From contig JAEOTA010000004.1 in assembly GCA_016840085.1 (NCBI GenBank), positions 203,809 through 267,808 of the forward strand: 64,000 nt of DNA, written 5' to 3'. The position numbers and the translations under genes are program-made. Each line of letters opens with the position of its first letter. Within the stretch, counting starts at the first letter, position 1. Source of the stretch: Promethearchaeota archaeon (GTDB taxonomy: Archaea; Asgardarchaeota; Lokiarchaeia; Sigyniarchaeales; SOKP01). Below the pieces are notes generated by a model that had not been told where the DNA came from, ran no database searches, and worked only from the letters and a program-made list of their open reading frames with translations. Positions 14,717 to 64,000 of the stretch are shown piece after piece.

Positions 14717-14734
14717 TTTTTTTATTATAATTAT

Positions 14735-16263: not shown

Positions 16264-16328
16264 GATTATTCAATTTCCATTTGTTTTTTTTATATGATAA
16301 TTATAATCCATAATAAAAATTGTGAGTG

Positions 16329-16518: not shown

Positions 16519-16525
16519 TAACCGA

Positions 16526-16560: not shown

Positions 16561-16589
16561 AATAGAAAATAAATTTGGAGTGTATATCA

Positions 16590-16811: not shown

Positions 16812-16940
16812 TTAATTTTTATCCTTTTTTCTTTTTCTTTTTGAACTTGATTTTATAATTAAGAACTAATCGTAGTTTAAAATAAATAAAAAGGGTGAAA
16901 ATTAGACTTTTTTAGAAAAAGAATAACTATATAAATTCTA

Positions 16941-35562: not shown

Positions 35563-38232
35563 TTATTCTAAAATATCGAATCTGTTAAAAAGTTTATACA
35601 CTAACTTTAACCTCCAGAACTTTTTTTTAGCTCTCCTACTAGCAATTGTATTTATGAAAGCTATTCCATCATCTCCTTTTGAATGTAAAGAATTTTTAAA
35701 ATCAGGATAAGATAAACCACCAATAGCTTTTGGAGGTCTGCCAAAACTTTTCACTTCTTTCCAATCTTTATTTAATTCTCTTGTAGCTCTCCATGTTTTA
35801 TCTGTTTTAATTTTTATTTGTTCCTCTGTAGTTAAATTAATTTCACCATAAACATTTATTGGGCAGAAACCACCGATGAAATCTATATTTTCAATCATTA
35901 TTAGATTTTCACCTTGTTTTAGATACTCTTTCATATCAAAAATTTTAATATTATTTTCTAGAACAACAAAATTAAGGGAGTGTCGAGTAATAATATGGCC
36001 TACCTCTGAATCATTTATAAAAATTTTAGCAAAGGTTCCAGCAATAACTTGTAAATATGCTTGTTCTATTTTTCCAACAATATTTATTACTTTCTTATAA
36101 AATGTTGTATGAACTCTGTGTAATCCTTCACTATCTAAATAAATTAGTTCACTAGGGATGTTAGGATTTTCCCATCTAACGTTTCTTTCTAATTGGTCAA
36201 TTTTGTCATTATAAAATTTTATTAACCATAAATAACGTTTTTTTATCGATTCAAAACCTTCTTTTCTAGCACATTTCATCCATAGATATTCATATTCATC
36301 AATTATATGGTTCAATTCATCTTTTAGTTCTTGGATCTCTTTAATTTTTTGGTTCTTATAATTCTCTTTAATAGGAAAGTAACCAATTAAAGATTTTGAA
36401 TTTATTCTTTTTTTACAATAAAACTTAATATGTTTTGCGACAAAAGCAAGGTTAGAAATGTTTATTTTATTTTTAGGAACAATTTTTTCTAACTCATCGC
36501 AATTCTTAATTATTTCATTCAATTCTTCTATTAATTTTTTAAATCCGGAAATCTTAATATTTTTTTTATATCTCCGAGATTTTTTTGCATAAGGATGTGC
36601 AAAAAAATGATTGTAATATGCTGTTGGGCTAATATGTAATTTTCGTTCATCTTGGAGTGAGCGAATTGAACTAAAAATTTGTATTAATTTACTATCTATT
36701 ATTCCAAAAAAATGAATAAATAAACATTTCCAAAAATATATGATATTTAATTCTTTTAAAGGATTCCATCCGACTACCGCAGAAAATATAAAACCATAAA
36801 ATCTATTTTCTCTAATTTCTTTGTTTTGATAATCCCCCCAACTTGAGGTTACTTCCCCAATTACTCCCTTCTCATACCCAAACTTGAGTAATTTTATAAT
36901 ATTTTTTTCATATTTATCAATCGAAGGAAAAATTCGATTGAAATCCATTATCGAAGGGCTAACTATTACAGGATAATCATAATCTCTTATTTCATTTAAA
37001 ATTGGATGACTTGCTTTAGTGTTATATTTCCAATACATTATTATCATATCCTTGGGTAAACCTTCAAGAATCTCTCTATATTTATATAGAATATCATGAT
37101 AAATAATGACTTTTTTATACCCATATTTTTTAGCAATATCATACACCTTCTTATAATGATTTAGATAAGTTCTTCCAATACCAACATCTTCAACATGCTT
37201 CTTTGAAGCTACTTTTCCAACATCCCAACTCTCATCAGCACCGATGTGAAAATACTCCGATTTAAAAGCCTTACTTAAATCACCAATCATATCATCCAAG
37301 AGCTCATAAATTTTTTCATTAGTGATATTTAAACTATTGGAACCAGGAAATTCACCATATTTCCAATAATCAGGACGGTGTAAAATATTATCCCAATGAC
37401 CTACAGTTTGAAAAATTGGTATAATTTCAATAAAGAATTTTTTTGCATAGTTTTGCAATTCTATTATATCTTCTTTTGAATAAGCCCCTCTATTTTTTCT
37501 AATTTCAGGATGATTAGTAAACTTAAACATATCTTGCATATAAACTAGATAATATTGATTTATCTTGTAATGGCTCAGTTCTTTAATAAATTTCTTTAAG
37601 CTTTTAATGGTAGGTGCTTGTCCTCGTGATATATCATCTGAAATACCCCTAATTTCTAAGGCAGGAAAATCTATTACCTTTAATTCGCTTAATGATAATT
37701 TTTTCTGACTTGAGTTCAGTAATTGGAGTAAAGTTTGAATTCCGTAAAATAAACCTTGAGGAGTAGATGCTTCTATTAAAACACTAGATTCTTCAGAAAC
37801 TAAGATATATCCTTGTTCAATAAAATTTTTTTCGTTTTTAATCGAATTATAAAGATCTTCCGGAATTATATGTCTTATCGCTTCTAAATTTGATTCAATA
37901 GCTGGAAAATCATTAATCTCCTGAACTTTATGAACTTCTAAATTCATTTTCAATCCAAAAAATTCTAATCTTTCTTGAAGCTGTTCAATTATAAATAAAT
38001 GTTCTTCTTCTAAGTTGGTAAATAATTTTGTCTCTTCAGTAATTTTCAATTTTTTCAAATTTTTCAATTTGAAGTAGCGAGGTTCTGGAATTAAAAATGT
38101 TTGTTGTTCCTTATCTTCGGAACTAATTAATTTATCCAAAAAAATGAACATAATATTATTTAAACTAAAGGAAATTAAAAAATTTAGCAAAATAGGTATA
38201 TAATATTCTATATCGCTTACAGACATTAACAT
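35563..38232 (-). CDS. GH20 beta-N-acetylhexosaminidase-like protein
   Basis: An 889-residue protein. After a hydrophobic N-terminal stretch comes a GH20b-type domain ([14 protein letters not shown] to [13 protein letters not shown]), then the GH20 TIM barrel with [17 protein letters not shown], and the catalytic pair in HIGADESWD at about residues 325-333. Substrate-assisted catalysis removes terminal N-acetylhexosamine. The C-terminal half (about residues 520-889) is poorly conserved and includes a beta-rich segment like a carbohydrate-binding or jelly-roll domain. The start may be the internal ATG giving [15 protein letters not shown]. With GH4 it points to amino-sugar or glycan breakdown. 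Confidence 0.85.
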
Positions 38233-47122: not shown

Positions 47123-47836
47123 TTATATACCTAAATATACCTCTTTTATTCGAGGTTCTCTCTTTAATTCTTCTTTTGATCCTCTCATTTCAATTTTTCC
47201 CTCTTCAAGAACATGAATATACTCAGCAACCTCCATTGCTAAAATCGCATCCTGTTCAACTAACAAAGTAGTTGTACCTTCTTGCTTTATTTTTTCAATT
47301 GCTTTAAAAATATCTTTCTTGACTTTAGGAGCCAAACCTAACGAGGGTTCATCCATTAAAAGTAGTTTTGGATTGGACATTAATGAACGTGCTATTGCTA
47401 GCATTTGTTGCTCTCCACCGCTTAAAGTTCCAGCTCGTTGTTTTTCTCGTTCTTTAAGACGAGGGAATATTTCAAAAATAAAATCTAATAATTCATGGAA
47501 TTTTTTCTTATCTTTTAATGTGTATGCTCCCAATCTAAGATTCTCCATAACTGTCATATCATAAAACAACTTACGACGTTCTGGACAATGAGAAATTCCT
47601 TTTTTTGCAATTCTATGAGGTTTTAACTCATCAATCCTTTCCCCTAGAAACTCGATTTTTCCTCTATCAGGTTCTTCTAAACCTGATATTACTCTGAGAA
47701 GCGTAGATTTTCCAGCTCCATTAGGACCAATAACAGCATCTAAAGCTTTTTCTTCGATTTTTAAATTAATTTCTTCAAGAGCTTTAGCTTTCCCATAATA
47801 ATGGTATACTTTTTTTATTTCAAGCAAATTCGTCAC
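47123..47836 (-). CDS. livF: Branched-chain amino-acid ABC transporter ATPase (LivF-type)
   Basis: A 237-residue ABC ATPase: Walker A GPNGAGKST, Q-loop region, signature LSGGEQQMLAIARSL, Walker B LLLMDEPSLGLAP and the switch His replaced by Q in LLVEQDAI, which is typical of LivF. It energises the two LivH/LivM permeases with LivG. The listed start is GTG at 47836, but AGAGGTGA just before makes TTG at 47827 (MLEIKKVYHYYG) likely. It overlaps the 3' end of livG by 8-17 bases. Confidence 0.92.
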   Translation of the reverse strand: MTNLLEIKKVYHYYGKAKALEEINLKIEEKALDAVIGPNGAGKSTLLRVISGLEEPDRGKIEFLGERIDELKPHRIAKKGISHCPERRKLFYDMTVMENLRLGAYTLKDKKKFHELLDFIFEIFPRLKEREKQRAGTLSGGEQQMLAIARSLMSNPKLLLMDEPSLGLAPKVKKDIFKAIEKIKQEGTTTLLVEQDAILAMEVAEYIHVLEEGKIEMRGSKEELKREPRIKEVYLGI

Positions 47837-48560
47837 CTCTACCTAAATATGCTTCAAGCACAATTTTATTATTAGCAACTTCACGAGGAGGGCCATCGGC
47901 AATTAATTTCCCTTGATGCATTGCAAGCACACGCGGTACTAGATTCATTAATTCACGTAATACATGACCAGTAATAAAAATTGTTACGCCATCCTCATAT
48001 AATTCTATTATTAAATCATTAATGACCTTTTGTTCTTCATGAGAAAGTCCACTAAATGGCTCATCAAGCAAAAGTAATTGTGGGTTACTAGCGATTGCTT
48101 TACCAATTTGTAACTTTCTCAGATCGCCATGAGGTAGAATAACCGGAGGAATTCTCGCTTTATCTACAAGTCCAACTGATGCTAGAATTGAACTAGCATA
48201 CTCATCAGTTCCAATCTCTTTCGAACTCTTTCTACCTCTTTTTGAAAGGCTTGGAACAATAATATTATCAAGTAAATTTAAAAATTTAAATGATCTAACT
48301 AATTGAAATGTTCGAGCAATCCCTAGATTCACTATTTTATAAGGGCGCATTCTAGTAATATCAATTCCGTCAAAATAAATTGTACCTGAATTAGTTTTCT
48401 CGAATCCTGATATTAAATTAAATACAGTAGTTTTACCTGCTCCATTTGGTCCAATCAAGCCAATAAACTCTCCTCGCTTGATTTCAAAACTGAAATCATT
48501 TACAGCTGTTAAACCACCAAATTTTTTTGTTAAATTTTTAACCTCTAGAATAATTCCCAT
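47820..48560 (-). CDS. livG: Branched-chain amino-acid ABC transporter ATPase (LivG-type)
   Basis: A 246-residue ABC ATPase with Walker A GPNGAGKTT, DITRMRPYKIVNLGIARTFQ as in LivG, LQIGKAIASNPQLLLLDEPFSGLSHEE (signature variant plus Walker B) and H in ITGHVLRELM. The typical ABC signature LSGG is reduced to LPHGDLRKLQIGKA, a variant common in LivG-type proteins. It pairs with LivF. It lies about 41 bases after livM in the operon. Confidence 0.9.
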   Translation of the reverse strand: MGIILEVKNLTKKFGGLTAVNDFSFEIKRGEFIGLIGPNGAGKTTVFNLISGFEKTNSGTIYFDGIDITRMRPYKIVNLGIARTFQLVRSFKFLNLLDNIIVPSLSKRGRKSSKEIGTDEYASSILASVGLVDKARIPPVILPHGDLRKLQIGKAIASNPQLLLLDEPFSGLSHEEQKVINDLIIELYEDGVTIFITGHVLRELMNLVPRVLAMHQGKLIADGPPREVANNKIVLEAYLGRGDEFA

Positions 48561-48601
48561 TATTAATCACATTTAAATTTTTATTCCATTTAACCTATAT
48601 C

Positions 48602-49654
48602 TTATCTACCCATTAAGACATCCCAGAAATCTTTCAGATGTTCTAAAATAGGTCTTAAAATCCCATGTTCAGCAAATCTAACAACAGTAATTAAAATTAT
48701 GGCGAATATTGCAAATTTCCATAAGCCAACATCAAATGCAAAGGCGCCAATCTCAACCACACCAATCTCTATTAGAATATATTCAAAAAAAATGAAGAAG
48801 AATGATCCTAATGCAGCCCCAATAATAGTAGTTAATCCTCCTAAAGATGCCATAAGAATAGCAAAAAATGAAATGACAAGTCCAAAATTTCCTGAGGGGT
48901 TTACTGAAGTAGTAGATAGGGCATAATAAGCTCCTGCTAATCCAGCAATTAACGCACTTATCATAAAAGCATAAATTTTATATCGTGTTGTATTGATTCC
49001 TGAAGCATCTGCTCCCGTTTCATCATCACGAATAGATTTAAAAATGGTTCCTAATTTAGATTTACTAATTTGAATTAAAACTATAAAAATAACTATTGCT
49101 GATATGAATACAATTAGATATTCTACTATAGGATTTTCAGATAAGGATGGTAAACCCGAAATTCCTTCAGAACCAAAAAATATATGTGAAAGCGATCCTA
49201 ATAAAAAGAGTTTTAATAAAATTAAGCTGAATACGAGAGTTCCTAGTGCTAGATATGGACCTTTTAATCTTAAGCATGGAATCCCAATTAGTAATCCAAA
49301 AAATACTGCTCCTAAAGAACCAAGAATAATTGATAACCAAATAGGAAAATTTTGATAATCAATTAGGTAAGCGCAAAGATAACCAGATATTCCAAAGAAA
49401 ATTGCATGTCCAAAACTAATTTGTCCTGAAATCCCTGTAAGTAAATCCCAACTTGCTGCGAAAATTGCAAATATCAATGCTAATGTAAAATGGGGTAAGA
49501 AGAAATTTATGAAACTCTGATCAGTAGATAGGAATGGTAGAACAGTAAGAATAGCTAAACAAACTACAGTTAATCCTCCAGAAAAAGTCGTTACCCAAGA
49601 TTTTAAATAACCTGGTAAATCACGCATCTTTTCTTTTATTTTATACCTTGTCAT
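48602..49654 (-). CDS. livM: Branched-chain amino-acid ABC transporter permease (LivM-type)
   Basis: A 350-residue permease with about nine to ten helices. It has the LivM features SFGHAIFFGISGYLCAY (helix with G-x-x-F-F-G-I-G), GLLIGIPCLRLKGPYLALGT and the cytoplasmic coupling loop SIRDDETGADASGIN, where E-x-A-x-x-x-G contacts the ATPase. It forms the membrane channel with LivH. Second permease of the operon. Confidence 0.9.
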   Translation of the reverse strand: MTRYKIKEKMRDLPGYLKSWVTTFSGGLTVVCLAILTVLPFLSTDQSFINFFLPHFTLALIFAIFAASWDLLTGISGQISFGHAIFFGISGYLCAYLIDYQNFPIWLSIILGSLGAVFFGLLIGIPCLRLKGPYLALGTLVFSLILLKLFLLGSLSHIFFGSEGISGLPSLSENPIVEYLIVFISAIVIFIVLIQISKSKLGTIFKSIRDDETGADASGINTTRYKIYAFMISALIAGLAGAYYALSTTSVNPSGNFGLVISFFAILMASLGGLTTIIGAALGSFFFIFFEYILIEIGVVEIGAFAFDVGLWKFAIFAIILITVVRFAEHGILRPILEHLKDFWDVLMGR

Positions 49655-49694
49655 TTTTCTATTATCTCCTCATAAGGTTTTAATTTATTAATTA

Positions 49695-50576
49695 TCACCT
49701 AAGTTCTTTCTTTCCAAATAATCCTTGAGGTCTAATTACCAACATGATAATAATAACTATAATGGGGATTAAATGAGCCCAAGAAGGGCCATTAGGAATG
49801 TAAATACTTGTGAAGCTAGTTACAAATCCTACTATATAGGCTCCAATAACGCTTCCAACTAGACTTCCCATCCCTCCTAAAATCACTACTGCAAATGAAT
49901 TTGTTAAAAATTCCCAACCCATTGTAGGGCCATTAATAGCAGCCGCAGGTATATATAAAACTGCAGCTATACTTGCAAGGAATGCGGAGATTATAACAGT
50001 ATAAAGTAGAATTCTATTGGCATTAATACCCATAAGTGTTGCAGCTTCTCTATCTTGGGAAACTGCTCTAATTGATTTACCTATTTTTGACTTATTAATG
50101 AATAGAGCAAATAATGATACAATAATTAATGACATGATAATGACGAATAGGAATTGATTAATCATTGAGTATCCAAATATTTCTGAAGTTCCAGAAATTA
50201 GAATATAATCATTAACTGCATAAGATTCAGTACCTGAAATTATCAAAGCCAACTGCTCAAGGAAGAAGGCTAATCCAAAAGTGATTAAAACAACACCAAC
50301 ATGAGTATCTTGTAAGGGTTTGATTAATATTAAATAAGTAAGACCTCCAAGTATAGTGACAATAATTAAAGCAATAATTACATTAAATAATAAATAATCA
50401 GGCCAAAAATCAAGAAACCATAAAAGCAAATATCCAGTTAACATGAAATAAGCCCCATGAGACAAATTCATAATTTTTCCTACCCCATACACTAAGGAAT
50501 AACCAAGAGCTATCAACGAAAAAACAGCTCCATTTAAAGTGCCATTGAATAAAAAATTAAGAATATCTCCATTCAT
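49695..50576 (-). CDS. livH: Branched-chain amino-acid ABC transporter permease (LivH-type)
   Basis: A 293-residue permease with about eight helices. Family features are FNGTLNGAVFSLIALGYSLVYGV at the N-terminus, KIMNLSHGAYFMLTGYL, and the coupling loop SIRAVSQDREAATLMGIN. It pairs with LivM to form the substrate path. The spacing to livM is 40 bases. Confidence 0.9.
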   Translation of the reverse strand: MNGDILNFLFNGTLNGAVFSLIALGYSLVYGVGKIMNLSHGAYFMLTGYLLLWFLDFWPDYLLFNVIIALIIVTILGGLTYLILIKPLQDTHVGVVLITFGLAFFLEQLALIISGTESYAVNDYILISGTSEIFGYSMINQFLFVIIMSLIIVSLFALFINKSKIGKSIRAVSQDREAATLMGINANRILLYTVIISAFLASIAAVLYIPAAAINGPTMGWEFLTNSFAVVILGGMGSLVGSVIGAYIVGFVTSFTSIYIPNGPSWAHLIPIIVIIIMLVIRPQGLFGKKELR

Positions 50577-50761
50577 AAATATCTTCTCATTCTAAATCAT
50601 TTAATATTATTATTAATATTTTATCTCATATCTTATAAAGCTGATCTTTTTACATTTTTATAAAAAGAAAATACGAGTATAAATTGAGCTTATCTTCATT
50701 TTTATCTTTTATATAATAAAAAAAAAAAAAAAATTATAAATTGAATTTATTAAACTGCCTT

Positions 50762-52153
50762 TTAAGACCATGCCTCATCGACCCATGGTGCAACAAGATA
50801 ATCAGCTGTGTGCAACCAAGGCGCGTATGGTGTATAAATAGCAGCTGGAACTACCTTCTTAGATCCATCAGGTTGCCATTGACACCATAATGTAAATCCA
50901 TAAGGATAACCCGCGACAAGATCGTGAGAATTTGGCCACCATGCTGATTCTCCAGACACACCAATAGGACGTTCAGTATTATCTGTTGTCCAAGTCTCCA
51001 TCTCAGCAATAATATCATCTGTGTCTAATGAATCAATTGCTTCAATAGCATTAGCAAGCGCATTTACAGCATCATAAGCCCCACATGCAATATAAAGCGG
51101 TTCATGTTTAAATTGTGCGATAAACGCATCCCAAAATGCAATAGATTTCTCAGTTTTATTAGTTTTATGTAATGTTTGCATGATTGTCTCATAAGCGCAT
51201 GATTCTCCACTAGACTTCCAAAAAGTATCTAATTGGGACTGAACGTCAATACCAAAGATAAGGTAATCATATTCGTTAGCAGCATATTGTTGCATCATCA
51301 AAACTCCACCTTGAGCGGAAATGACTGGAATTAAAATATCACATCCATCCTCTTGAAATGAAGCTAAATGGGTATTCATGTCCGCAGCACTAAGAGTAAT
51401 ATCATATCTGATTGGGTCTAGAACTTTTGCTTTCATACCTGTAAAAACAGGTAAGTAATCTGCACAAGCAGCCACTAAAGTATCTACCCAGGTTAAATCT
51501 TCTGCTAGAATGCCAAATGTACTGATATCTTCATTAGGATAGGTAGCATTCATTGTTAAGATAAAACCTGCTAATGTTTGCAATATTTGCATCCCTAGTG
51601 AACTTGAATTAATAGGCATAAATCTCCAGAAATATTTGTATGTATCATAATCGGTCATAACATTTGTACAGAAAATATCAGTAGCAGCACCAGTATCAAT
51701 AAAGATAATTTCTTCATCCATGAACTCTTCCACATATGCTAATAATGCTTCCGATCTGAAACCACCTACTGCGAAATCAACTTCTTTATCGAATATAAGT
51801 CTTCTTGCAGCATCAACTCCCCTAGAGGTTACAAGATTAGGATTAGATTCGTCTGTATCTTCTTTGGTAACACCAATGTAGTATTTTACTCCTCCAACAT
51901 CAACACCACCAGCTTCATTTATGTGTTTTGCAGCAAACCATGCTCCTTCGTAATTAGCATCACCTTGAATTTCTCCTGTATCACCAGCACATCCTATTAT
52001 AATTGTATTTTCTTTATCAAAACCGCTTGGAGCTCCAGGGTATTTGAATGGTGCTTCAGGGACTGCAAGGAAATACCAAGCTCCCAAGCCGATACCAACA
52101 CCAATAACGGCGATAAGTACAATAGCTATAATTCTTTTTGTTAATTTTTCCAT
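50762..52153 (-). CDS. ABC transporter substrate-binding protein (Liv/Leu-type)
   Basis: A 463-residue type I periplasmic binding protein anchored by one N-terminal hydrophobic segment (residues about 8-28, IAIVLIAVIGVGIGLGAWYF). The receptor domain starts IIIGCAGDTGEIQGDANYEGAW, with AAKHINEAGGVDV and GGFRSEALLAYVEEF typical of Leu/Ile/Val-binding proteins. It binds the ligand outside the membrane and delivers it to LivHM. No lipobox cysteine; anchoring by the helix is common in archaea. It is first of the operon; 185 bases separate it from livH. Ligand may be amino acids, but other polar compounds are possible. Confidence 0.88.
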   Translation of the reverse strand: MEKLTKRIIAIVLIAVIGVGIGLGAWYFLAVPEAPFKYPGAPSGFDKENTIIIGCAGDTGEIQGDANYEGAWFAAKHINEAGGVDVGGVKYYIGVTKEDTDESNPNLVTSRGVDAARRLIFDKEVDFAVGGFRSEALLAYVEEFMDEEIIFIDTGAATDIFCTNVMTDYDTYKYFWRFMPINSSSLGMQILQTLAGFILTMNATYPNEDISTFGILAEDLTWVDTLVAACADYLPVFTGMKAKVLDPIRYDITLSAADMNTHLASFQEDGCDILIPVISAQGGVLMMQQYAANEYDYLIFGIDVQSQLDTFWKSSGESCAYETIMQTLHKTNKTEKSIAFWDAFIAQFKHEPLYIACGAYDAVNALANAIEAIDSLDTDDIIAEMETWTTDNTERPIGVSGESAWWPNSHDLVAGYPYGFTLWCQWQPDGSKKVVPAAIYTPYAPWLHTADYLVAPWVDEAWS

Positions 52154-52383: not shown

Positions 52384-55300
52384 CTAAAAACTAAAAATAA
52401 GTTGTAAAACAAACAAAACTCCAAAGCTAATAAATGCGATAAAAAGAGTGATAAGAGTGTAAAATCTCCATTTAATAGAAAGTTTTTCTCTTTCTTCTTT
52501 TCTTCCCATATATACTAAAGTAATTGTACCAATTACGGCGATTGATATAAAAACAGTGAAAATATACCAAACAGGTGTGATATATATAAATAAAAATGCT
52601 ATAACACTACCCCAACCATACGATAACCTTAATACTCTTCTTTTAAATATAACATCTGGATCAGTTGATTTAGCATAAGGAACAACTAGAATTAAAAATG
52701 CAAAAATCGCAATCGTCAATAAAGTCGGATGAATCGGACCTAATAAAATACTTAGAAATAGTTCAGATAACAGAATACCAAGAAATACCGCCACAAAAGC
52801 GCTAAATGTTATCCATATAGATTTGAAATGAGTCTTTAAAAAACCAAAAACTATTTTAAACACATCATTTATCAATTGCTTGATTTTTCTGAAGAATTTA
52901 ATAAGAATTTCAACAAAATTATTGAAAAGTTCACGTAATTCTTCTAATAGAAATACAAAAGGATATATAAGCATTGTTATGAAAAGAATTGCTCCACTAA
53001 GTTCATAAGATAATGATACGTGATATAGTATTGAACTTAATAATGAGAAAAACGCTAGCCAAAAAGCAAAAGCCTTAAAAGAATGTTCTTTAAACGGTTT
53101 AACTATTATACCTAAAAACACTACAAATAATGATAGAGCTACGCTTATATTTAAGAAGAAATTGGTGTTTGGGACAAATCCTAAGAGTATGTGAACATCG
53201 ACTGAAAGAAAAACTCCAATTGTCAAAAAGGAAATCTTTCTAAGACTTGATAATGATTTGTCTTCAAAAACACCTACATATTTATCAATACAAGTTAAAA
53301 TGAAAAAGATTATACACGATAGTATTATTAGATTTAGAGCACGCAATGGATCTAAAGTAAGATAAAATAGTGGCCATATACCAAAGTCCAAGTATAAGAT
53401 CATTAATAGAAAAAACCTAATTTTCTTTTTATTTGAGATTATATACTTTGAAAAATCTAATAGATTAAAAAGATAGGCTGTCTCAATTATTAAGATAAAA
53501 ATTATAAGGGGTATAGATGTAAATAACAATTGAATGAATAAAGCAACATAGAACCAAATTAAGTAAGTTGTGGTAAAGATCATTATGAATATCCACGATA
53601 TAAATCTAAAGTAATTTGCTAATTTTCCTAAAAGTTTCACTAAGAATATATCAAGTATCATTAGAACATGAACCATCAAGCTTAAACTTAAAAATACTAA
53701 TTGGGGATCAATTTCTAATAAAATCAGACCTTGGAGCAAAAGGAAAAATAGATTGAAATAAAAACATATTCCTAATACATGAGTTATATACGCTCTGTAT
53801 TTAATGAGAGCTTCAGTTTTATCTGGATAAAGATGATTCAAAGCTTTAAACAAGGAATAATTTGTGTAAACTTGCATAATTATAAAAATCATGAATTCTA
53901 AACTAAGCAATACGGGATAATGTAAAATATACTGATTAATACTTAGAAGTGTAAATAATGAGATTGCAAAATAACTTATTGTATGTATGAAATTTCCATA
54001 ACTTTTTTCAATCTTCTTTAGGATATGTATATCTAAAAACGTTAAAATGAACAATATTAGTTGTGAAATGATTATACTTTCAAAAACACCTATTATTTCA
54101 GTTAATAACCCAAATATCATTAAACTAATTTCTATATACAATATCAAAATCAATAAAGAATAGAATTTCGTTCTGAATTCTGGAAACTTTTCTTTAGTGA
54201 AAATAAAATCAATATAATTAATTGTTATAAACGAAATACATGTTTCAATTAAAACTAACGAAAAGATGAAGAAAAAGTCTAATACATTATATATAATTAA
54301 AATTAATATCCAATTAATGGCGAGAAATCCTTGAAAACACAAAATTAGGATCAATTCAATTCGTTTTTTTACTCTTTCTTCCACTTTAATGAAAAAGTAG
54401 CTTAAAATAAATAATAAAAGAGAAGCATTTTGGGCAAATAATGAATAATATGCTAATTGTTCTAAATTTTGAAACAATAATAATAAGCCATCAGATATTA
54501 AGGAAGCTAAGTAAAAAGATCCCCAAATAAATGTATTATAATAGAGTATTAAACGATAAATAGAAATTTGTTGACGTGAGATATCTAAATAAGATAAAAA
54601 GTATATAGAAATAAGATTCAACACTGAAATTGTTAAAAATAATAGAAATAAATTTAAATGAGAATGATATAAGAAAACGGATAGAGTATTACAAAATATG
54701 AACCATGATAAAACTATGAATTTGTTTCGTGTTGAATTGAATAAATAATAGAAACTATGTCTATCGATGATGAATGTTTCGAAAAATAAACCTCCACTTA
54801 AAATTAAAACAAATAGATAAATTGATATGACACGATTTAAATCTATAAAAATTAAATAAAGTAAAAAGTTAAGACTTAAACCAATGGGAATAATTAGATA
54901 TAGTATTAAGGAAATCTTATTAACATAGAGAAGTGGGTCTTGTACTTTAAATTCGATTTCAGATTTGATTATAAATCTTAAACATAATAAGAAGAGAATA
55001 GACCAAATTATAAGAAAATCCGTAATTTGATAAATTACTAATATTTGGGTGAATAAAAATTGCCTTAAAATAATTGGTAAGATAATCCCAATGAATAAAG
55101 AGAGGAGTAAAGAATTAAGGATATAGCATGTAAAATTAAGCCATTTTATCTGATTTTTATCTTCATATAATTTCATAATACTATTTTTAATTTCGGCTTG
55201 CTCCTCTTTCACTAAATTTTTAAAAAGATTAGTCAAAATTTGGAAACATGTTAAATACAAAAGAGCCCATGTTAGATACCAATAAGGTCTAATTACTTCA

Positions 55301-58300
55301 AGAATTAAAAGTAGTTCTAAAATAGGTAATGTAATAGGAATTGGAATTAAGAACCAGAGAACATATCGATATTCCGTTATTAAGAAATAGATAAAGAAAA
55401 TGAAGACAATTGAGAAAATTGTAATAAAAATTCCAATTGAAACTTTAAAAAGAGTTAAGAAGAGTAATGATATTGAAGATGAGGCTCCAATGGTAACAAT
55501 TAAATAAGGAATTACTTTATTAATTGGAATGTTCATCTTGAAATGATTAAAAACAAAAAAGGAAGTACCAAAGACGGTTAATGCAAGAAAAAAGGAAAAT
55601 AATAAAAATCCCTGAAATAAACTGAATGTGTTGAAGGTTAACCAAGAAAAACCTAATATTAATAACCAAGAAAGACATAAATCTATAAGTCTTTTATGTA
55701 ATTTTAAATATTTATTAGAAAAGAGACTTAAACCTACAACAATTAAGCTAATATTAATTGAAAATATTGGATTTAATATTATAGAATATAATACAAAATA
55801 TACTGTTAAAAATATACCCGTTAAAATTGTGAAATAAGCTATAATTAATATAAAACCTATTGACCTTATGTTCGGAAAAAAAGAATAAACAATTAAGCAC
55901 AATCCAATTATTAATATATCTATTGAACTCGCAATTTCTAATGAAATCTTTATTGACATCAAGTAAAACTGCCAAAAAGAAGCATTTATTAATATTAATA
56001 TTAACCATATTATTGAAGCAATTTTCCAATATTTAAAAATAGCGAATACAGGGAATAATAAAACTACAGAAAATAGAATAAAAGACATATTTCTGAGTAA
56101 ATGATTAGCAATAAATAGATTTTGGCTAATCCAATACAATAAAAATAGACTTTCAGCCCATATAACAAATATAATATGAAAAAAATATTTCTTTATTTTA
56201 GTATATAATACAGGTAAGAACATTAGAGAGCATATTATTATACTGATAATTAAAGAACCATTAAAATCATAAATTCCGAATAAATTTAACGAATTTGTAG
56301 CTATATCTATACCTGTTAGCCCTTTATATATTATGTAAAAATTTGCAAAGGGTATAATTATCCAAGCGTACCAACCTGATTTCCAAATCATCCAAGAAAT
56401 CTTCCACTGATATATTCCTATAGAGATATAAAAAAGAAGAACACTTAGGTTAATAGCGATAATGATTGGAATAGGTTCTCCAATTGGAATCGATAAAGAA
56501 GAGATAATTAAGAAATATATGAATATTGGAAAAGAAAGGATAGGTGATATTAAATTAATAGTAAATGAGATCTTTCTGAATCTTTCAGATGATTTTTTGA
56601 AAAGAAGGACAAATCCAAATCCGGTTACACTCAGAGTTAAAGTAAAAGTAAGTATAGGATAGAAATCCAAATAAGGGGGATGATTGAAAAGTAATGAATA
56701 TGATATAAAACTGATAAAATCGAATATAAACAGTAAAATGCTGGGTTTTATAAACCATTTATAATTTTCATCATTTTCACGATAAAAATGAATACCAACC
56801 AAAAGTAAAAAGATAAAAACTGAAATCGTTATGGTATAAAGAATCAAAATATTCGTATATGAAATAAGATATACAAATGATAATACCGAGAACGATGTAT
56901 ATAATGAGAATTTTTCGAGAAAATTATTTTTCTTAAAATGTAATAAAATTGAGAACAATAAAACTGAAATATAAGTTAGTAAGTATATGTTAATAGAAAA
57001 ACCAATAAAGATAAGATTAAATTCAAAAATAATGTCATAAATATCAAGAAGAGCAATGATTTTTATTAATGTGATAAAACTTAGTAAATGATAAGATAAA
57101 AATCTAAATATTGGAAATAGACTTCTTTCTGAAAGAATAAGTGTATAAGATAGAATAAAAAGAAAAAGTGAAAGTATAGAGTTGAAGTAAAGCAAGCTTA
57201 AGAATAATAGTATATACAATAGATAAAATCTAAAAATTTTATACTCTGATTCAACATCTATTGCCTTATTAAATTTTAACCAAAGATAACTCAAAAATAA
57301 AACAAGATTAACGATAATCATTGAAATTTGAATTCCGGGATTATTATTAAAGAAGGAGACTGTATTAGATAAAATATAGAATGTTTCGACATAAAAGCTT
57401 AATAATGAAACAGAAAATAAAATTACGGTTACTTTTTTCATTATTGATTGATTAACTTCGGAAAAAAGATTCAATTTTTTGAAATAAGAGAAAGTAATGG
57501 GGGTTAAAAATGTAAAAGCTAGTATATACAAAACGATTTTTGTGAAAATGGTATAGGAGAATATAAATATGAGAAAAAGACATACTATAATTTTAGTAAA
57601 AAGCCATGAGATAAATTCTAATCCATCTCTAAGCTTCTTAAATTCTACTTTTATAATATATGTAAATGATTTAAGCAAGATTAAAACAAATAGAAAAAAT
57701 AGTCCAAGATACCAGACTATATTATACTGTTTCAAAATAGAAGGAAATAAATTCAGAATAGCGCTCTCATGAATTAAGAATATAATTACAAATGATAAAG
57801 AGAATATAATACCATGTAAAAGACTATCGCGTAAATATTTATGAACTTTTAATTCTTTGGAATAATTAAATAGCAGGATCAAAGTATAAATATTTATAAC
57901 AAAAAATATCAAGAATGAACTGCTAATGATAAAAGGGCTAAAATAATGAAAAGAGAAAATTATAGGTAACTCTAAGATAATAAAGATTGAAATTGTTAAC
58001 CAAGTAAATGTTTGAACTAATTTTAGAAAATTTATACTTCTTTCTTTTAATAAAAACTTGTTAGACAAAAAGATTAAGAATTTTAGAGTTGCAAAAAATA
58101 AAAAAAGAGATATAGTAATAATATGGACGATATGGGCGCTTAAGCCTAATCTTTCTAATTCTAATCCAACAAAACTTGGAATTGAAATAATTAATCCTGA
58201 TAGTATTAGGCTATTACCTAATATGACTTTCATAAGGAAATTCTCATTAAATAATCGTTTTTTATAAGAATATACACTTGGTAAATAAAAGAAAATTGAT

Positions 58301-60900
58301 GCCGCAATGAAAGGTAAAAGAAACCCATAAAGAGTCCCATATAATAGGAGATAAATATAATAGAAAACAGTCGTTCCAGCTAAGACTACTTCAATAAAAG
58401 CTTGAGTTTTTAGAATCCTCATAGTGTATTTATCTTTCATTTGATAGTGTTTTATTAAATAGTAAGTAAAGGTTAGAATACCAAATACGATATATAGTGA
58501 ATAATTCACTACTGATATGGTATCAATAGGCAATCCTAAACGAAAAAAACGGTCTAAGCCGACAATAGTAGGGATTAATGTTATACACGCTGCTATTAAA
58601 ACACAATCTATCAATAAAAGTTTACGTGAAATATTCTCATAAATTTTCTTTTTTAATAAGTAATATATTGGAAAAAATAAAATAGAGAAAAAACACATGA
58701 AAGGAATTAAAAAAACATACAAAGTGTTAAGTGTGAGAAGAAATGAAATATAATAGGCTAATCCAGCGCTAAAACCTAATGTTATTAAATTTATTTTAAC
58801 GGTCACTGATTTTGAAAACAAAATTTCATTCCTAGAGAATAGGTTAACGAAGAAAGTCATAATTAGTAATGAAAAATAAATGGAAAATACTAATTTTAGG
58901 TACAAAATTAAGCTTACTAACATAATCGAGTAAAAGAAAAAGAAAAACAAAGCAGTAAGCTCTATCGTCATCAAATAAGAATTTATATCTACAAATTTTT
59001 TGAATATAGATTCTTTTAATCTTTCTATTTTTAATCCAAATTTTAAGTTAATATAACTAAAAATGGATAAAAATAGTAGATCTAATGTTAAAACTATAAA
59101 ATTATTTAATGAATTAATAAATATTGCCAGAAAAATATTTAAAATTAGTACCCAGAACAAATAATAACTATAGATTAAAAAATCGTTATGAGAAAATAAT
59201 CCTATAAGATAATTCACAAATATGAAGAGAATGAAAATTATAGGAAATAATATAGAGGAAACTATTAAGACTTGGAAAAAACTAAATATTTCAACAATAA
59301 AAAATGTCCTTAAATTAATTAAAATAAAAATAAGTAATTCAATCAATAAAATATTTGTAAATACACATATTCTGAAGAGTTTTGAGCGTTTTGCATAAAA
59401 GATTCTAGCGTATAAAATATAAAATGAAAACAATAAAATTATTAGAATAATGGTTGAATGAAGTAAAATATTTGAAAATAATATGATTATTGGGTCTGAT
59501 GTAAATCTAATATATTCAAAAATTAAAATGGGAAAGAAAGAGTATGTTATTAAGGAAAAACTGATAACCGCAATTATATTTTGAAATATGATGATATCTT
59601 CTTTATGGAAATAATCAATTTTAACAAAAATTTGTAGAATTAGATATAAAGATAATAAAAAGACAATAAATTGAATATTTATAAGAAAAACAGTTGAGAT
59701 TAGAGGAAGAACTCCAAATGAGATAGATATTAAAATCCCAATTGTATTAAATAAAAATACATATTTATTATACTTCTTAGGACAAAATTCTGTTTTTTGT
59801 TCATAATAAAAGGGAATATAAAGGAAGGGAAGTATCAGTAATATTAAAGTGGGATTATTTATTAAAAAACTGAATAAAACGACGAACAGAATTAAGATTC
59901 CAGATAAAATTGAACTATTTTTCTGATATTTAATATTTTCTACATTATTTTTAGAATCATTAATTCTTTTCGAAGTCTTATATGTGTTTAATTTGTTATT
60001 ATAATGAAAAAGAATGTAAAATCTGGACTTAAAATAAGCAATTATAAATATTATAGTTAAAAAGGAGCTATTAATTAATTCTAATAAAGTATACTGAACA
60101 CCTGATAGAATAGATGTAATCATTATAATAAATGGCATTTGAATTAATAAAACGAATATTAGACTCACTACTGAAATAACGAATTTTTGCTTGAAAACAG
60201 TTAGATCTTGTAAAAATACTTTTTTATCTTTAATTTTATCTTTTATTTTACTGCGCTGGATTTTTGTATTGAAATATGTGATGAAATAAAATATTAAATT
60301 TGTTATGAGACAAAAAAGCCAAGATAGATTTGTAGAAATAGTAAATGCTAGAAATATGATATGGACGATGTAATTAATTAGAATTATAAAATTGTAAGGT
60401 TGTTTAATCATTAACCTTAGATTGATTGTATGTTTGAATTCATCCTCATTTATGTCATAAAAACCAATTGGTTGGAAACCATAATAGTAATACACAATGT
60501 TATAAAGAGCGATAAAGCTAATTAAAGGAAGTTGCACAAATGTATACTCCACAGGGGAAATAATAATAAATATAGGAACAACTATAAAAGATAGTATAGA
60601 AATTAAAAATAAAACATGAATTCTAGCAACCAGATTGTTTTCCTTATTCACGAAAAAGGATTTATTTCTGTATTTATCAAAAGTTTTATAAAAAAACAAT
60701 AACGCAAACATAAAAGTTAAAACTGAAAGAGGTAATGCCAGAAAATTTCCTGCAGGAAAGAGTCTATAAATCCAAAACCCAGTAAAGGCAGTTGCAAACG
60801 GGGCTATAATCAAATAAAAAAAAAACCACCAGAGCTTTTGAAGAAATTCTGTAGCTTTCTTAAGCTTCTCTTCAGAATTACTACTTCTGTCAGATTTCAT
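52384..60900 (-). CDS. Giant polytopic membrane protein, about 85 TM helices (2838 aa)
   Basis: One uninterrupted 2838-codon frame beginning MKSDRSSNSEEKLKKATEFL. By eye I count about 85-90 hydrophobic helices with short, often Lys/Asn-rich loops and no soluble domain. The helices group into units of about 130 residues with four helices each; for example two adjacent units share IPTIVGLDRFFRLGL and IPSFVGLELERLGL at equivalent places, followed by similar helices. About 21 such units would fill the protein. Many second helices end in L-x-D (LTFLDIHIL, LMILDIFLV). No catalytic or transporter motif is visible. It is expressed alone on the minus strand, upstream of nothing related. Function unknown. 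Confidence 0.85.
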   Translation of the reverse strand: MKSDRSSNSEEKLKKATEFLQKLWWFFFYLIIAPFATAFTGFWIYRLFPAGNFLALPLSVLTFMFALLFFYKTFDKYRNKSFFVNKENNLVARIHVLFLISILSFIVVPIFIIISPVEYTFVQLPLISFIALYNIVYYYYGFQPIGFYDINEDEFKHTINLRLMIKQPYNFIILINYIVHIIFLAFTISTNLSWLFCLITNLIFYFITYFNTKIQRSKIKDKIKDKKVFLQDLTVFKQKFVISVVSLIFVLLIQMPFIIMITSILSGVQYTLLELINSSFLTIIFIIAYFKSRFYILFHYNNKLNTYKTSKRINDSKNNVENIKYQKNSSILSGILILFVVLFSFLINNPTLILLILPFLYIPFYYEQKTEFCPKKYNKYVFLFNTIGILISISFGVLPLISTVFLINIQFIVFLLSLYLILQIFVKIDYFHKEDIIIFQNIIAVISFSLITYSFFPILIFEYIRFTSDPIIILFSNILLHSTIILIILLFSFYILYARIFYAKRSKLFRICVFTNILLIELLIFILINLRTFFIVEIFSFFQVLIVSSILFPIIFILFIFVNYLIGLFSHNDFLIYSYYLFWVLILNIFLAIFINSLNNFIVLTLDLLFLSIFSYINLKFGLKIERLKESIFKKFVDINSYLMTIELTALFFFFFYSIMLVSLILYLKLVFSIYFSLLIMTFFVNLFSRNEILFSKSVTVKINLITLGFSAGLAYYISFLLTLNTLYVFLIPFMCFFSILFFPIYYLLKKKIYENISRKLLLIDCVLIAACITLIPTIVGLDRFFRLGLPIDTISVVNYSLYIVFGILTFTYYLIKHYQMKDKYTMRILKTQAFIEVVLAGTTVFYYIYLLLYGTLYGFLLPFIAASIFFYLPSVYSYKKRLFNENFLMKVILGNSLILSGLIISIPSFVGLELERLGLSAHIVHIITISLFLFFATLKFLIFLSNKFLLKERSINFLKLVQTFTWLTISIFIILELPIIFSFHYFSPFIISSSFLIFFVINIYTLILLFNYSKELKVHKYLRDSLLHGIIFSLSFVIIFLIHESAILNLFPSILKQYNIVWYLGLFFLFVLILLKSFTYIIKVEFKKLRDGLEFISWLFTKIIVCLFLIFIFSYTIFTKIVLYILAFTFLTPITFSYFKKLNLFSEVNQSIMKKVTVILFSVSLLSFYVETFYILSNTVSFFNNNPGIQISMIIVNLVLFLSYLWLKFNKAIDVESEYKIFRFYLLYILLFLSLLYFNSILSLFLFILSYTLILSERSLFPIFRFLSYHLLSFITLIKIIALLDIYDIIFEFNLIFIGFSINIYLLTYISVLLFSILLHFKKNNFLEKFSLYTSFSVLSFVYLISYTNILILYTITISVFIFLLLVGIHFYRENDENYKWFIKPSILLFIFDFISFISYSLLFNHPPYLDFYPILTFTLTLSVTGFGFVLLFKKSSERFRKISFTINLISPILSFPIFIYFLIISSLSIPIGEPIPIIIAINLSVLLFYISIGIYQWKISWMIWKSGWYAWIIIPFANFYIIYKGLTGIDIATNSLNLFGIYDFNGSLIISIIICSLMFLPVLYTKIKKYFFHIIFVIWAESLFLLYWISQNLFIANHLLRNMSFILFSVVLLFPVFAIFKYWKIASIIWLILILINASFWQFYLMSIKISLEIASSIDILIIGLCLIVYSFFPNIRSIGFILIIAYFTILTGIFLTVYFVLYSIILNPIFSINISLIVVGLSLFSNKYLKLHKRLIDLCLSWLLILGFSWLTFNTFSLFQGFLLFSFFLALTVFGTSFFVFNHFKMNIPINKVIPYLIVTIGASSSISLLFLTLFKVSIGIFITIFSIVFIFFIYFLITEYRYVLWFLIPIPITLPILELLLILEVIRPYWYLTWALLYLTCFQILTNLFKNLVKEEQAEIKNSIMKLYEDKNQIKWLNFTCYILNSLLLSLFIGIILPIILRQFLFTQILVIYQITDFLIIWSILFLLCLRFIIKSEIEFKVQDPLLYVNKISLILYLIIPIGLSLNFLLYLIFIDLNRVISIYLFVLILSGGLFFETFIIDRHSFYYLFNSTRNKFIVLSWFIFCNTLSVFLYHSHLNLFLLFLTISVLNLISIYFLSYLDISRQQISIYRLILYYNTFIWGSFYLASLISDGLLLLFQNLEQLAYYSLFAQNASLLLFILSYFFIKVEERVKKRIELILILCFQGFLAINWILILIIYNVLDFFFIFSLVLIETCISFITINYIDFIFTKEKFPEFRTKFYSLLILILYIEISLMIFGLLTEIIGVFESIIISQLILFILTFLDIHILKKIEKSYGNFIHTISYFAISLFTLLSINQYILHYPVLLSLEFMIFIIMQVYTNYSLFKALNHLYPDKTEALIKYRAYITHVLGICFYFNLFFLLLQGLILLEIDPQLVFLSLSLMVHVLMILDIFLVKLLGKLANYFRFISWIFIMIFTTTYLIWFYVALFIQLLFTSIPLIIFILIIETAYLFNLLDFSKYIISNKKKIRFFLLMILYLDFGIWPLFYLTLDPLRALNLIILSCIIFFILTCIDKYVGVFEDKSLSSLRKISFLTIGVFLSVDVHILLGFVPNTNFFLNISVALSLFVVFLGIIVKPFKEHSFKAFAFWLAFFSLLSSILYHVSLSYELSGAILFITMLIYPFVFLLEELRELFNNFVEILIKFFRKIKQLINDVFKIVFGFLKTHFKSIWITFSAFVAVFLGILLSELFLSILLGPIHPTLLTIAIFAFLILVVPYAKSTDPDVIFKRRVLRLSYGWGSVIAFLFIYITPVWYIFTVFISIAVIGTITLVYMGRKEEREKLSIKWRFYTLITLFIAFISFGVLFVLQLIFSF

Positions 60901-61019: not shown

Positions 61020-62342
61020 TCATTTAAATTTAGGAAGATAATCTTTTTGTATTTGACTCATTTCATTGAACATCTCTTCTGCAATTCCAAAGCTTCCCAC
61101 ATTAGGATCAGTGGCTAAACACGCAATTGCAAGATCTTTAGATTTATTCAACACAGCATCTACGCATAAATCTTGTATTGAAGCTTCAATGCGGAGTAAA
61201 GCAGCAATATTTCTAGGAATCTTTCCTAATTTAACTCCATGAACACCATTTTTGTTAACTGTTGCTGAACACTCTAAGATTAGATCCTGTGGTAAATTAT
61301 CTGTAATATTATCATTAGGAATATTAACTGCAAATTCATAGGAATTTTTATCTGTAATTATTGCCTCGATTATTGGTACTGCTCTTTCTCCAGAAGTTCT
61401 CTCGAATAAAATGCCTTTACTTGGATATCTTCCTCTTTTAAGTCTTTTATGATAGTTGAGATATTTGTAATGAACAAATTGACCCTCATTGTCTATAAAG
61501 TTTATCCAATCAATCATATCCTTGGTTTGTGTGAATTCTTCACCGAATTGTAAGTATTCTCCAACGTGGTTATCGCCAGCATAACAAAACCATCCAAATT
61601 TTTTAAAAACTTCAAATGTTAGAGTTGAAAATTCAAATCGATGTTCATATCCTCTAAAATAATCAAGAGCTTGTTCATTAAAAGTAGGCATTAAATCTTT
61701 GCCTGTTAATAAATCTTCTAAACTTAATAAGAATGCGAAATGATTTAGGCCACCTACTCCCATTTTTAACTCTCTAATTGATTTTTTAAACATGTTGGGT
61801 AAATATCCAACTAAAAACGCGATTTGATGGCATAAACCAATAAATTTTAACTCTTTGACACTTCTCTTTATCGCTAGACATACTCGAGATAATGGATTGG
61901 AAAAATTAATCAAAAAGGCATTTGGGCAAAATTTTTCAGCATCTTTAACAATTTCGACAATTGAAGGGATTATTCTCCAGGCATGAAAAGTCCCTCCAGG
62001 ACCTCCGCATTCACCTAATATTTGTGTTGCCCCGTATTTTCTCGGTATTTCATAATCTTGACGCCATAATTCCATTCTATTTCCAACTTCAATCGAATTA
62101 ATAATAAAATCAGCATCTTTAAAGGCTTTAGCTCTGTTTGTTGTTCTTTCAAGATGAAGCTTATTCTTTTGTCTTTCATTTTCAATCTCTAAAAGATCAT
62201 AAACCATCTCTAATTTTTTTTTATTTACATCATGAAGTACAACGGTAGAACCTTCTAACAAATCACTTAGAAAAATATCGTTAAACATTGGGGGACCGAA
62301 TGATGTCGAACCAGCGCCTACTAGCACAATTTTTGGTTGCAT
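61020..62342 (-). CDS. GH4-family NAD-dependent glycosidase
   Basis: A 440-residue GH4 enzyme. The Rossmann motif IVLVGAGSTSFGP is at residues 5-17. GECGGPGG, INFSNPLSRVC, the metal-binding cysteine in GLCHQ and the GLNHF motif follow, the last with the metal-binding His. GH4 enzymes use NAD and Mn to cleave glycosides by an oxidation-elimination route, e.g. alpha-glucosides, alpha-galacturonides or 6-phospho sugars. The sugar cannot be assigned from sequence. It lies 119 bases upstream of the giant membrane gene on the same strand. Confidence 0.9.
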   Translation of the reverse strand: MQPKIVLVGAGSTSFGPPMFNDIFLSDLLEGSTVVLHDVNKKKLEMVYDLLEIENERQKNKLHLERTTNRAKAFKDADFIINSIEVGNRMELWRQDYEIPRKYGATQILGECGGPGGTFHAWRIIPSIVEIVKDAEKFCPNAFLINFSNPLSRVCLAIKRSVKELKFIGLCHQIAFLVGYLPNMFKKSIRELKMGVGGLNHFAFLLSLEDLLTGKDLMPTFNEQALDYFRGYEHRFEFSTLTFEVFKKFGWFCYAGDNHVGEYLQFGEEFTQTKDMIDWINFIDNEGQFVHYKYLNYHKRLKRGRYPSKGILFERTSGERAVPIIEAIITDKNSYEFAVNIPNDNITDNLPQDLILECSATVNKNGVHGVKLGKIPRNIAALLRIEASIQDLCVDAVLNKSKDLAIACLATDPNVGSFGIAEEMFNEMSQIQKDYLPKFK

Positions 62343-63145: not shown

Positions 63146-64000
63146 TTAATCAAGAATCAACTTTATCCTTTCTAAAGCTTCTTTAATTTTTTCTTCAGGT
63201 TGAGTTAAAGCAAATCTCACATAACCTTCTCCATATTGACCAAAACCGGTCCCAGGTGTAACAACTACTCCTACTTCTATCAATTTTTTTACGAAATTCA
63301 TGCTACTCTTTTCAGAAAACTTTTTAGGAATTTGTGTCCATACATAAAAGGTTGCCTGTGGTTTTTCTGTTTTCCATCCCATATCATTTAATCTTTTTAT
63401 TAAAATATCCATCCTTTTTTCATACACTCTCACCGTTTTTTTTACTATTTCAGGTTTCTCCTCAGATTTATATTCACTTAAACCTTTCATTACTGCTTTC
63501 TGTATGAATTTTGGACTTCCAGAGTCAATTTGAGACTTAACTTTCCTTACTCCTTGTATTATTTCTTTATTACCTGCTATCCACCCACATCGAAAACCAG
63601 TCATATTAAACATTTTAGAGGCACTATTAATTTCTACATGATTTTGATCTACTTGTAATATTGTCGGCGCAATATACTCATCAAACGTAAATTCTGAATA
63701 TGGATTATCATAAACAATAAAAAAGTTATAGTCTTCAGCATAATCAGCTACCTTTTTTAAAAATTCCTTTGGGGCGATCGCGCCAGTAGGATTATTAGGA
63801 TAATTTAGATACATCATTTTTGCTTTTTTAAGAATTTTAGTGTTAATTGCTTCTAAGTCTGGAAGAAATTTATTTTCTTTTATTAAAGGCATCGGATAGG
63901 GTTCAGCATCGCATAGTTTTGTTGCCCCATTTTCATACACAGGATATCCCGGATTAGGACAAAGAACTATATCTCCTGGATTTATAAAAGCTCTCGCAAT
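63146..64000 (-). CDS. Class I/II PLP aminotransferase (5' partial)
   Basis: The frame is open through the window end, so the N-terminus lies beyond 64000; the ATG at 63940 is internal and the upstream residues read IARAFINPGDIVLCPNPGYP. YLNYPNNPTGA binds the cofactor, YDNPYSEF follows, and SASKMFNMTGFRCGW holds the Schiff-base lysine (K in SASK) and the cofactor-phosphate region. GFGQYGEGYVRFALTQPEE is the usual C-terminal arginine motif. It resembles aspartate or LL-diaminopimelate aminotransferases; specificity is open. Cytoplasmic amino-acid metabolism. Confidence 0.9.
   Translation of the reverse strand: MARAFINPGDIVLCPNPGYPVYENGATKLCDAEPYPMPLIKENKFLPDLEAINTKILKKAKMMYLNYPNNPTGAIAPKEFLKKVADYAEDYNFFIVYDNPYSEFTFDEYIAPTILQVDQNHVEINSASKMFNMTGFRCGWIAGNKEIIQGVRKVKSQIDSGSPKFIQKAVMKGLSEYKSEEKPEIVKKTVRVYEKRMDILIKRLNDMGWKTEKPQATFYVWTQIPKKFSEKSSMNFVKKLIEVGVVVTPGTGFGQYGEGYVRFALTQPEEKIKEALERIKLILD

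Follow-up and report, generated by a model that had tools for sequence, protein, structure and literature searches.

A giant transmembrane protein family of Asgard archaea with two arrays of four-helix units around a conserved tryptophan-rich core

What kind of protein is encoded by an 8.5-kb reading frame that is made up almost entirely of hydrophobic stretches, and what might such a protein do? The frame lies in a 64,000-nucleotide stretch of a Promethearchaeota archaeon contig (hereafter, the window). An initial annotation, made from the letters alone, had described it as a single intact frame with about 85 to 90 helices by eye, and both points held up. Following an ATG start, 2,838 codons run uninterrupted on the minus strand (52384-60900), and a GES hydropathy scan of the product gave 86 non-overlapping hydrophobic segments compared to 79 on the Kyte-Doolittle scale, both counts coming from hydropathy scanning, not from a trained predictor. 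When helices of at least 15 residues were counted manually in AlphaFold2 models, there were 36 compared to 38 GES segments in residues 1325-2490, and 32 compared to 32 in residues 1-1142. The protein is almost wholly transmembrane; it has no large soluble domain because the longest gap between segments is 48 aa. The GC content is 23 to 26% in the four 2-kb bins of 52-60 kb, compared to 25 to 36% in the other bins of the window. Searches with the window protein were negative in Pfam (E value of ≤1), in NCBIfam (≤0.01), and against PDB sequences (≤10). Among 29 core, 19 N-terminal, and 29 core-plus-array members of its family, the only Pfam or NCBIfam match over the cut-off was an oxidoreductase domain at one locus (L038). 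Thus, no strong similarity to a known transporter or polytopic family was found in Pfam, NCBIfam, or PDB, and an open-access literature search found no publications on the family.

The repeat structure was analyzed with a profile of 11 collinear orthologues, of which the ten others are 33 to 88% identical to the window protein. In the self-alignment of this profile, 16 matches scored above 30 and 10 above 35, compared to 1 and 0, respectively, in the reversed control. The offsets were ∼130, 250, 122, and 1,090, and the repeat signal reached a score of 120 whereas reversed sequences stayed at or below 35. A unit model, for which the eight units of the window protein itself were the seeds, describes a four-helix unit of ∼126 residues and places three units in array A (residues 706-1091) and five in array B (residues 1992-2607), which together account for 999 of the 2,838 residues and 32 of the 86 helices. 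The eight scores in the window protein (E values of 1.9e-07 to 1.3e-25) are found by construction, these units being the seeds, unlike the extra units in relatives. Across the 115 family members, the window protein and seeds included, the model gave 986 matches at E < 1, compared to none at E ≤ 10 on the same 115 proteins reversed, a control that keeps composition and loses helix grammar. A small set of 82 further polytopic proteins (30,235 aa), taken from the retrieved loci, gave no match below an E value of 0.1 with this model and one (E = 0.061) with an iterated model.

The initial annotation had the whole protein built from about 21 units. Repeated four-helix units are indeed present, and the elements that it saw as shared, IPTIVGLDRFFRLGL / IPSFVGLELERLGL, occur in array A units 1 and 2, 131 apart. 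However, only eight units in two arrays are detectable, and the count of 21 units throughout was rejected, as five rounds of the unit model never recruited the N-terminal 700 residues, the core, or the tail of the window protein. The best unit matches outside the arrays had E values of 0.77 or worse. Decayed units outside the arrays are possible because some relatives show weak matches near residues 330-440. The iterated model places array A unit 3 at residues 1038-1141. The features of the locus are collected in Table 1.

TABLE 1 Features of the giant gene and its neighbours. Shown are positions in the window, strand, and, where available, the basis of the assignment or a remark; residues are those of the giant protein.
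Feature	Position	Strand	Basis or remark
ABC transporter, branched-chain amino-acid type: binding protein, two permeases, two ATPases	47123..52153	-	downstream of giant
Giant gene; product of 2,838 aa with 86 predicted membrane segments	52384..60900	-	frame, hydropathy scan, dN/dS of relatives
C-terminal tail, residues 2611-2838, ∼7 segments, and stop codon	52384..53070	-	
Array B unit 5, residues 2492-2607	53080..53427	-	E 3.6e-25, seed
Array B unit 4, residues 2371-2492	53425..53790	-	E 4.3e-21, seed
Array B unit 3, residues 2244-2371	53788..54171	-	E 1.3e-25, seed
Array B unit 2, residues 2119-2244	54169..54546	-	E 5e-20, seed
Array B unit 1, residues 1992-2118	54547..54927	-	E 1.1e-14, seed
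Core, residues 1325-1890, ∼20 segments, most conserved, 2.8% Trp	55231..56928	-	
Trp-rich stretch in core with conserved P and N, residues 1499-1549	56254..56406	-	
Array A unit 3, residues 966-1091 (register uncertain)	57628..58005	-	E 1.9e-07, seed
Array A unit 2, residues 838-963	58012..58389	-	E 3.4e-19, seed
Array A unit 1, residues 706-833	58402..58785	-	E 2.4e-21, seed
Region without reliable unit match, residues 311-700, ∼11 segments	58801..59970	-	unit model
N-module, residues 1-310, ∼7 segments	59971..60900	-	separate gene in nine related loci
Polar loop, residues 72-93, probably cytoplasmic	60622..60687	-	positive-inside rule
Glycoside hydrolase family 4 (GH4)	61020..62342	-	upstream of giant
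Class I/II aminotransferase	63146..63940	-	upstream; matches only C-terminal part of family

The consensus of 779 units contains four hydrophobic stretches. Lys and Arg cluster at the junctions of neighbouring units and in the linker that joins TM2 to TM3, whereas the two remaining loops have hardly any. The positive-inside rule then predicts that each unit starts and ends on the cytoplasmic side. In PIEZO proteins, an amphipathic intracellular helix goes with each unit. In 777 units of the giant family, the TM2-TM3 linker has a helical moment of 0.357 compared to 0.261 after shuffling, an excess clearer than at any other place in the unit, and this sequence pattern predicts an amphipathic helix lying on the membrane.

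The core is a single region between the arrays, with no detectable repeats. In the 11 orthologues it has 13 invariant residues per 100, compared to 4 to 6 in the arrays. A 29-row core alignment contains 50 columns that are invariant or nearly so, including 8 Trp and 3 ionisable residues (E5, R118, and D208 in alignment numbering). The fact that only 3 of these 50 columns are ionisable speaks against the core housing a catalytic or ion-coupled centre. Outside the giants, there were 17 core matches of 442 to 1,153 aa, 11 of them labelled partial.

The N-module is encoded by its own adjacent gene, 310 to 317 aa long, at nine loci from three genera (L049, L051, L052, L082, L083, L084, L086, L087, and L088). 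At the nine junctions, the two frames overlap by 4 to 11 bases in six cases and by 53 in one, and are separated by gaps of 1 and 3 bases in the others; in six of eight junctions examined, the start of the second frame is preceded by a GAGG- or GGAG-like stretch, a count that has no chance control. Genus g2 carries both forms, fused in L054 and split at L049, L082-L084, and L086-L088. Of 55 database matches to the N-module, 33 are 305 to 325 aa long and begin with M. All 55 are unnamed or Asgard-named, and a standalone N-module outside Asgard archaea was thus not seen among them. Within the N-module, D75 and Y77 of the polar loop are kept in 32 of 32 rows, and R78, N85, N89, and R93 in 29 to 31 of 32. 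The loop is the most conserved polar site found and, judging from this conservation, is likely a contact point. Five genomes have an N-module and no core match: three with short or truncated frames (G008, G153, and G156), one with a 1,416-aa frame (G048), and one with the weak match of another giant family (G215). In a separate observation, the homologue P0111 has a zinc-ribbon-like segment at residues 168-190 (Pfam E value of 3e-4, below the cut-off).

The arms on the two sides of the core differ in length among relatives. In 96 homologues longer than 2,500 aa and with a core start, some of which may be truncated, array A contains 1 to 6 units and array B 2 to 11 units at E < 0.1. Three trends were apparent. 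First, the length differences fall into discrete classes. In 40 pairs with at least 65% identity and a length difference of at least 60, the 37 internal gaps measured 120 to 135 aa (12 gaps), 179 to 182 aa (10), 247 to 264 aa (14), and 289 aa (1). Strict insertion or deletion of whole units was ruled out, as only 11 of the 37 gaps come as close as 6 aa to a multiple of 126; this is because the 179- to 182-aa class corresponds to 1.5 units. Second, helices tend to come and go in even numbers. In a wider set of 219 distinct blocks from 221 pairs at ≥50% identity, 157 blocks (72%) had an even helix number compared to 60% by random placement. Pairs with ≥65% identity gave 29 blocks of 120 to 135, 179 to 182, or 247 to 289 aa, of which 26 had an even helix count (mostly 4, 6, or 8 in close orthologues); the 60% null was built on the lengths of all 219 blocks and not on these 29, which are not independent because several proteins share one insertion. 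Third, the core is spared: all 29 blocks lie outside it, 13 before and 16 after, and it lacks any unit in 95 of the 96 homologues. Good examples of such differences are L035 and L044, which are 91% identical and differ by blocks of 128 and 250 aa, and L002 and L037, which are 84% identical and differ by 247 aa. The sizes and positions of the blocks therefore mean that even close relatives differ in the length of their arms, for the most part by pairs of helices, while the core stays constant; the step of insertion or deletion looks like a helix pair. A simple law relating unit count to length was rejected; the array B count correlates with the downstream length (r = 0.82) whereas the array A count explains the position of the core poorly (r = 0.34).

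How widespread is this architecture? A search of 5.8 billion proteins returned 115 protein clusters, the window's own included, with lengths of 1,570 to 3,754 aa and a weakest E value of 4e-173. Many clusters are unnamed; the names given are those of Asgard groups (Promethearchaeota, Lokiarchaeota, Hodarchaeota, and Thorarchaeota) with two exceptions, a "marine sediment metagenome" and a bin named Nanopelagicaceae bacterium (P0108), which may be mislabelled. Of 227 genomes of the phylum, 59 gave a match to the core profile, and all 59 belong to one order. By table count, 49 of these belong to the window's own family (65 genomes listed there) and the other 10 to three more families. The match was single in 57 of the 59 genomes and in two pieces on different contigs in the other two. 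Open frames of relatives reach 4,297 aa, and 99 homologues longer than 2,300 aa have 67 to 116 segments (median, 83). Five sequences come from family f2, with L080 cut off by the end of its contig; they have 80 to 118 segments and share the core (E values down to 2e-68) and, weakly, the repeat unit. The dN/dS ratio was 0.16 to 0.34 in 13 of 13 pairs of relatives, a set that does not contain the window's own gene and includes two pairs with dS above 1.2. The relatives are under purifying selection, and the suggestion in the initial annotation that the frame is strongly selected is borne out at that level. The giant is thus a real, conserved family of extreme architecture, resembling no described protein family that we found.

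Two loci have an unusual arrangement. The genome with L038 is a single contig; there, at L038:11320-14454, the reading frame of the giant's N-terminal portion continues into a stretch that matches Pyr_redox_2 (residues 854-1022, E = 1e-22), through either truncation or a chimera. At L055:6227-14836, the giant is split into frames of 2,065 and 796 aa that are 21 bases apart on a contig with a run of X; this is a broken gene, an assembly error, or a C-terminal split.

Among known systems, the closest layout is that of PIEZO1 and PIEZO2, mechanosensitive channels that sense touch. Passages in three papers describe PIEZO arms as arrays of four-TM units that begin and end inside (PMC5788504, PMC12266723, PMC9256749), two of them (PMC5788504, PMC12266723) describe how the arms bend the membrane into a dome, and the third (PMC9256749) gives 38 helices per subunit. 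The eight four-TM units of the giant are likewise predicted, from their K/R linkers and the positive-inside rule, to start and end in the cytoplasm. However, the giant has 86 predicted helices, more than twice the 38 of a PIEZO subunit, and its two arrays flank a core whereas PIEZO has one arm with a C-terminal pore; the giant is also not known to act as a channel. The initial annotation knew of no family with this layout, which stands as far as Pfam, NCBIfam, and PDB relatives go but not for the layout itself, as PIEZO arms share the array of four-TM units. Membership in the PIEZO family was rejected by sequence, since the blade, TM25-28, and cap profiles all failed to match the gene. In the genome, Piezo_TM1-24 (PF24871) and Piezo_cap (PF12166) had no match at E ≤ 10, and the giant has no cap-sized domain; Piezo_TM25-28 (PF15917) had none in the giant and one elsewhere in the genome (E = 1.38) in a frame with internal stops. 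PIEZO families were also absent from the matches of the 29 core, 19 N-terminal, and 29 core-plus-array members. At most, the giant would work like PIEZO arms.

The AlphaFold2 models are of middling confidence, with a pLDDT of 76 and a pTM of 0.49 for residues 1325-2490 and a pLDDT of 70 and a pTM of 0.39 for residues 1-1142. Foldseek found no PDB match at E ≤ 0.001 for these models (best, 0.6 and 0.095). Among the best Foldseek and VIA rows listed, all non-significant, many are soluble helical solenoids, and ABC proteins such as SUR1 and CFTR also appear; no PIEZO chain is among the rows listed for these middling models. The soluble alpha-solenoids that are frequent there (for example, Ski3, Ctr9, and separase) resemble the giant in their stacked antiparallel helices but are soluble and have no sequence relation to it, and their matches were non-significant (Foldseek E ≥ 0.095).

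Other giants occur in Asgard archaea. The aloposons of Heimdallarchaeum are described, in passages of PMC8813620, as mobile elements with giant-protein genes; the likeness to the window's giant lies in both being giant genes of Asgard archaea, and the word "transmembrane" has no occurrence in the text of that paper. Nine sequences of family f8, from the same phylum (L089, whose gene lies at 11951-18052, and L110-L117), are a second kind of polytopic giant, with 2,033 to 2,295 aa, 61 to 75 segments, and their own repeat (offset of 235 to 240, score of 69 compared to up to 37 in the reversed control). Matches to them were found in 15 of the 227 genomes, all in family f8. The f8 profile links to the N terminus of the window's family with a score of 39 (probability of 18%) and to its C-terminal part with a score of 50 (probability of 24%), compared to up to 28.5 in reversed controls, whereas the core gives no link and four HMMER models of the giant family did not match any of the nine f8 sequences. 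These weak links are compatible with a possible common origin of the two families.

What, then, might the giant do? Our preferred reading, a tentative one by analogy to PIEZO, is that it acts through two arms embedded in the membrane, which they would bend or stiffen or whose tension they would sense. On a single chain of 86 predicted helices, two arrays of four-helix units flank the Trp-rich core, with the helices stacked side by side in the membrane as predicted in low-confidence models, and one of the two cytoplasmic linkers of each unit is predicted to form an amphipathic helix. The arms may then deform the cell membrane or feel its tension, much like PIEZO blades, and the length of the arrays would set the size of the membrane patch that the arms organise. 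The invariant polar loop of the N-module may bind a cytoplasmic partner or a lipid head group. Of the three roles guessed in the initial annotation, a "membrane-shaping scaffold" is the best, as a proposal; the other two, a giant lipid conduit and a multi-channel assembly, would be less probable alternatives. A bolder form, which we regard as rather doubtful, is that Asgard archaea independently evolved a membrane-bending or tension-sensing machine that has neither the cap nor the pore of PIEZO, with the most membrane-crossing chain known (∼86 helices, and up to ∼118 in relatives), arms tuned in length by helix pairs, and a fixed Trp hub.

A conduit or a passive packing role would be expected to leave much the same sequence traces as arms. 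A very large conduit for lipid or other hydrophobic cargo, with a groove that runs along the membrane or across it, is lined by the arrays, and has its entry or gate in the Trp-rich core, would suit the aromatic-rich conserved core, the stacked helices of the models, and the presence of only 22 D, E, K, or R residues mid-segment in all predicted segments. We nevertheless consider it unlikely, as no energy-coupling domain was found, array length varies widely, and there is no conserved polar track: only 3 of the 20 residues that are invariant and ionisable in the 11 orthologues lie mid-segment (E521, K1507, and E2257), with 2 more at a segment edge.

Less likely again is that the giant is a fused multi-subunit enzyme or transporter complex, its repeats being old duplicated subunits and its active site lying in the N-module or the core. 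The separate N-module genes, the GAGG- or GGAG-like stretches at their junctions, and the invariant D-x-Y-R ... N ... N ... R loop are what such a complex might show. However, no Pfam or NCBIfam enzyme domain is common to the family, the one oxidoreductase match being that of L038, where the N-terminal portion of the giant continues as another gene. Furthermore, the N-module stands beside the rest of the giant in all nine split loci, and three of the five genomes with an N-module and no core match have short or truncated frames.

The neighbouring genes raise the possibility, which we judge to be slight, of a glycan or cell-surface polymer protein (a flippase, polymerase, or uptake component) working with GH4 and the transporters. 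Homologues of GH4 and of the aminotransferase occur in 25 and 26, respectively, of 44 giant-bearing stretches from several genera, some stretches being cut by contig ends; the fragment P0123 is labelled "O-antigen polymerase" by NCBI; and family f4 has a DUF4838/GH67-N-like neighbour. On the other hand, of seven stretches retrieved from GH4 loci, four (L118-L121, from genomes with no core match) have the aminotransferase-GH4 pair but no giant, and in L118 the gene order is otherwise that of the giant-bearing L050. GH4 homologues are present in 98 of 227 genomes compared to 59 for the core, no GH4 was seen in stretches of genera g4, g6, and g7 or families f2 and f3, and P0123 matched nothing in Pfam at E ≤ 0.1 or in NCBIfam at E ≤ 1. 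Because the pair occurs without the giant, the neighbours are a shared address and give no function, and GH4 and the aminotransferase were rejected as a guide to it. The ABC transporter was likewise rejected, as, among the loci examined, only those of the window's own genus had its binding protein next to the giant. Finally, an assembly artefact or a decaying, functionless frame can be dismissed, for although most public contigs are metagenome assemblies and a few loci are broken or chimera-like (L038 and L055), the 115 clusters, the low dN/dS in every pair, and open frames of 2,500 to 4,300 aa in many genomes speak against it.

Other genes of the window and of related loci deserve mention in their own right. 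The aminotransferase is 393 aa long in a relative, and its gene here probably continues beyond the end of the window. The 682-aa protein at 32667-34715 matches Exo_endo_phos in its C-terminal part (E = 2e-19) and the C-terminal nuclease-like domain of PGAP2IP (E = 4.7e-15), unexpected in an archaeon; in eukaryotes, PGAP2IP is a GPI-anchor-related protein. A second glycosidase, of 889 aa with a GH20 catalytic domain, lies at 35563-38232. At 16941-22964, a 2,007-aa protein has DUF6456, TPR, and MIT matches below the cut-off, and its gene shows strong strand skew in base composition. In family f4 (L056, L057, and L058), the upstream neighbour is divergent and of the DUF4838/GH67-N kind (one scanned), and in L056 a WD40 protein follows the giant.

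No known prokaryotes are more closely related to eukaryotes than Asgard archaea, whose cells carry long membrane protrusions. The family may be relevant to how these archaea shape their membranes. With 67 to 118 predicted helices per chain, and with nearly all named members being Asgard archaea, its proteins would far exceed the 38 helices of PIEZO. The arrays form a natural length series, from 2 to 11 units in one arm beside a constant core. This series and the separate N-module of ∼313 aa mean that single parts could be expressed and tested for membrane bending or a response to tension.
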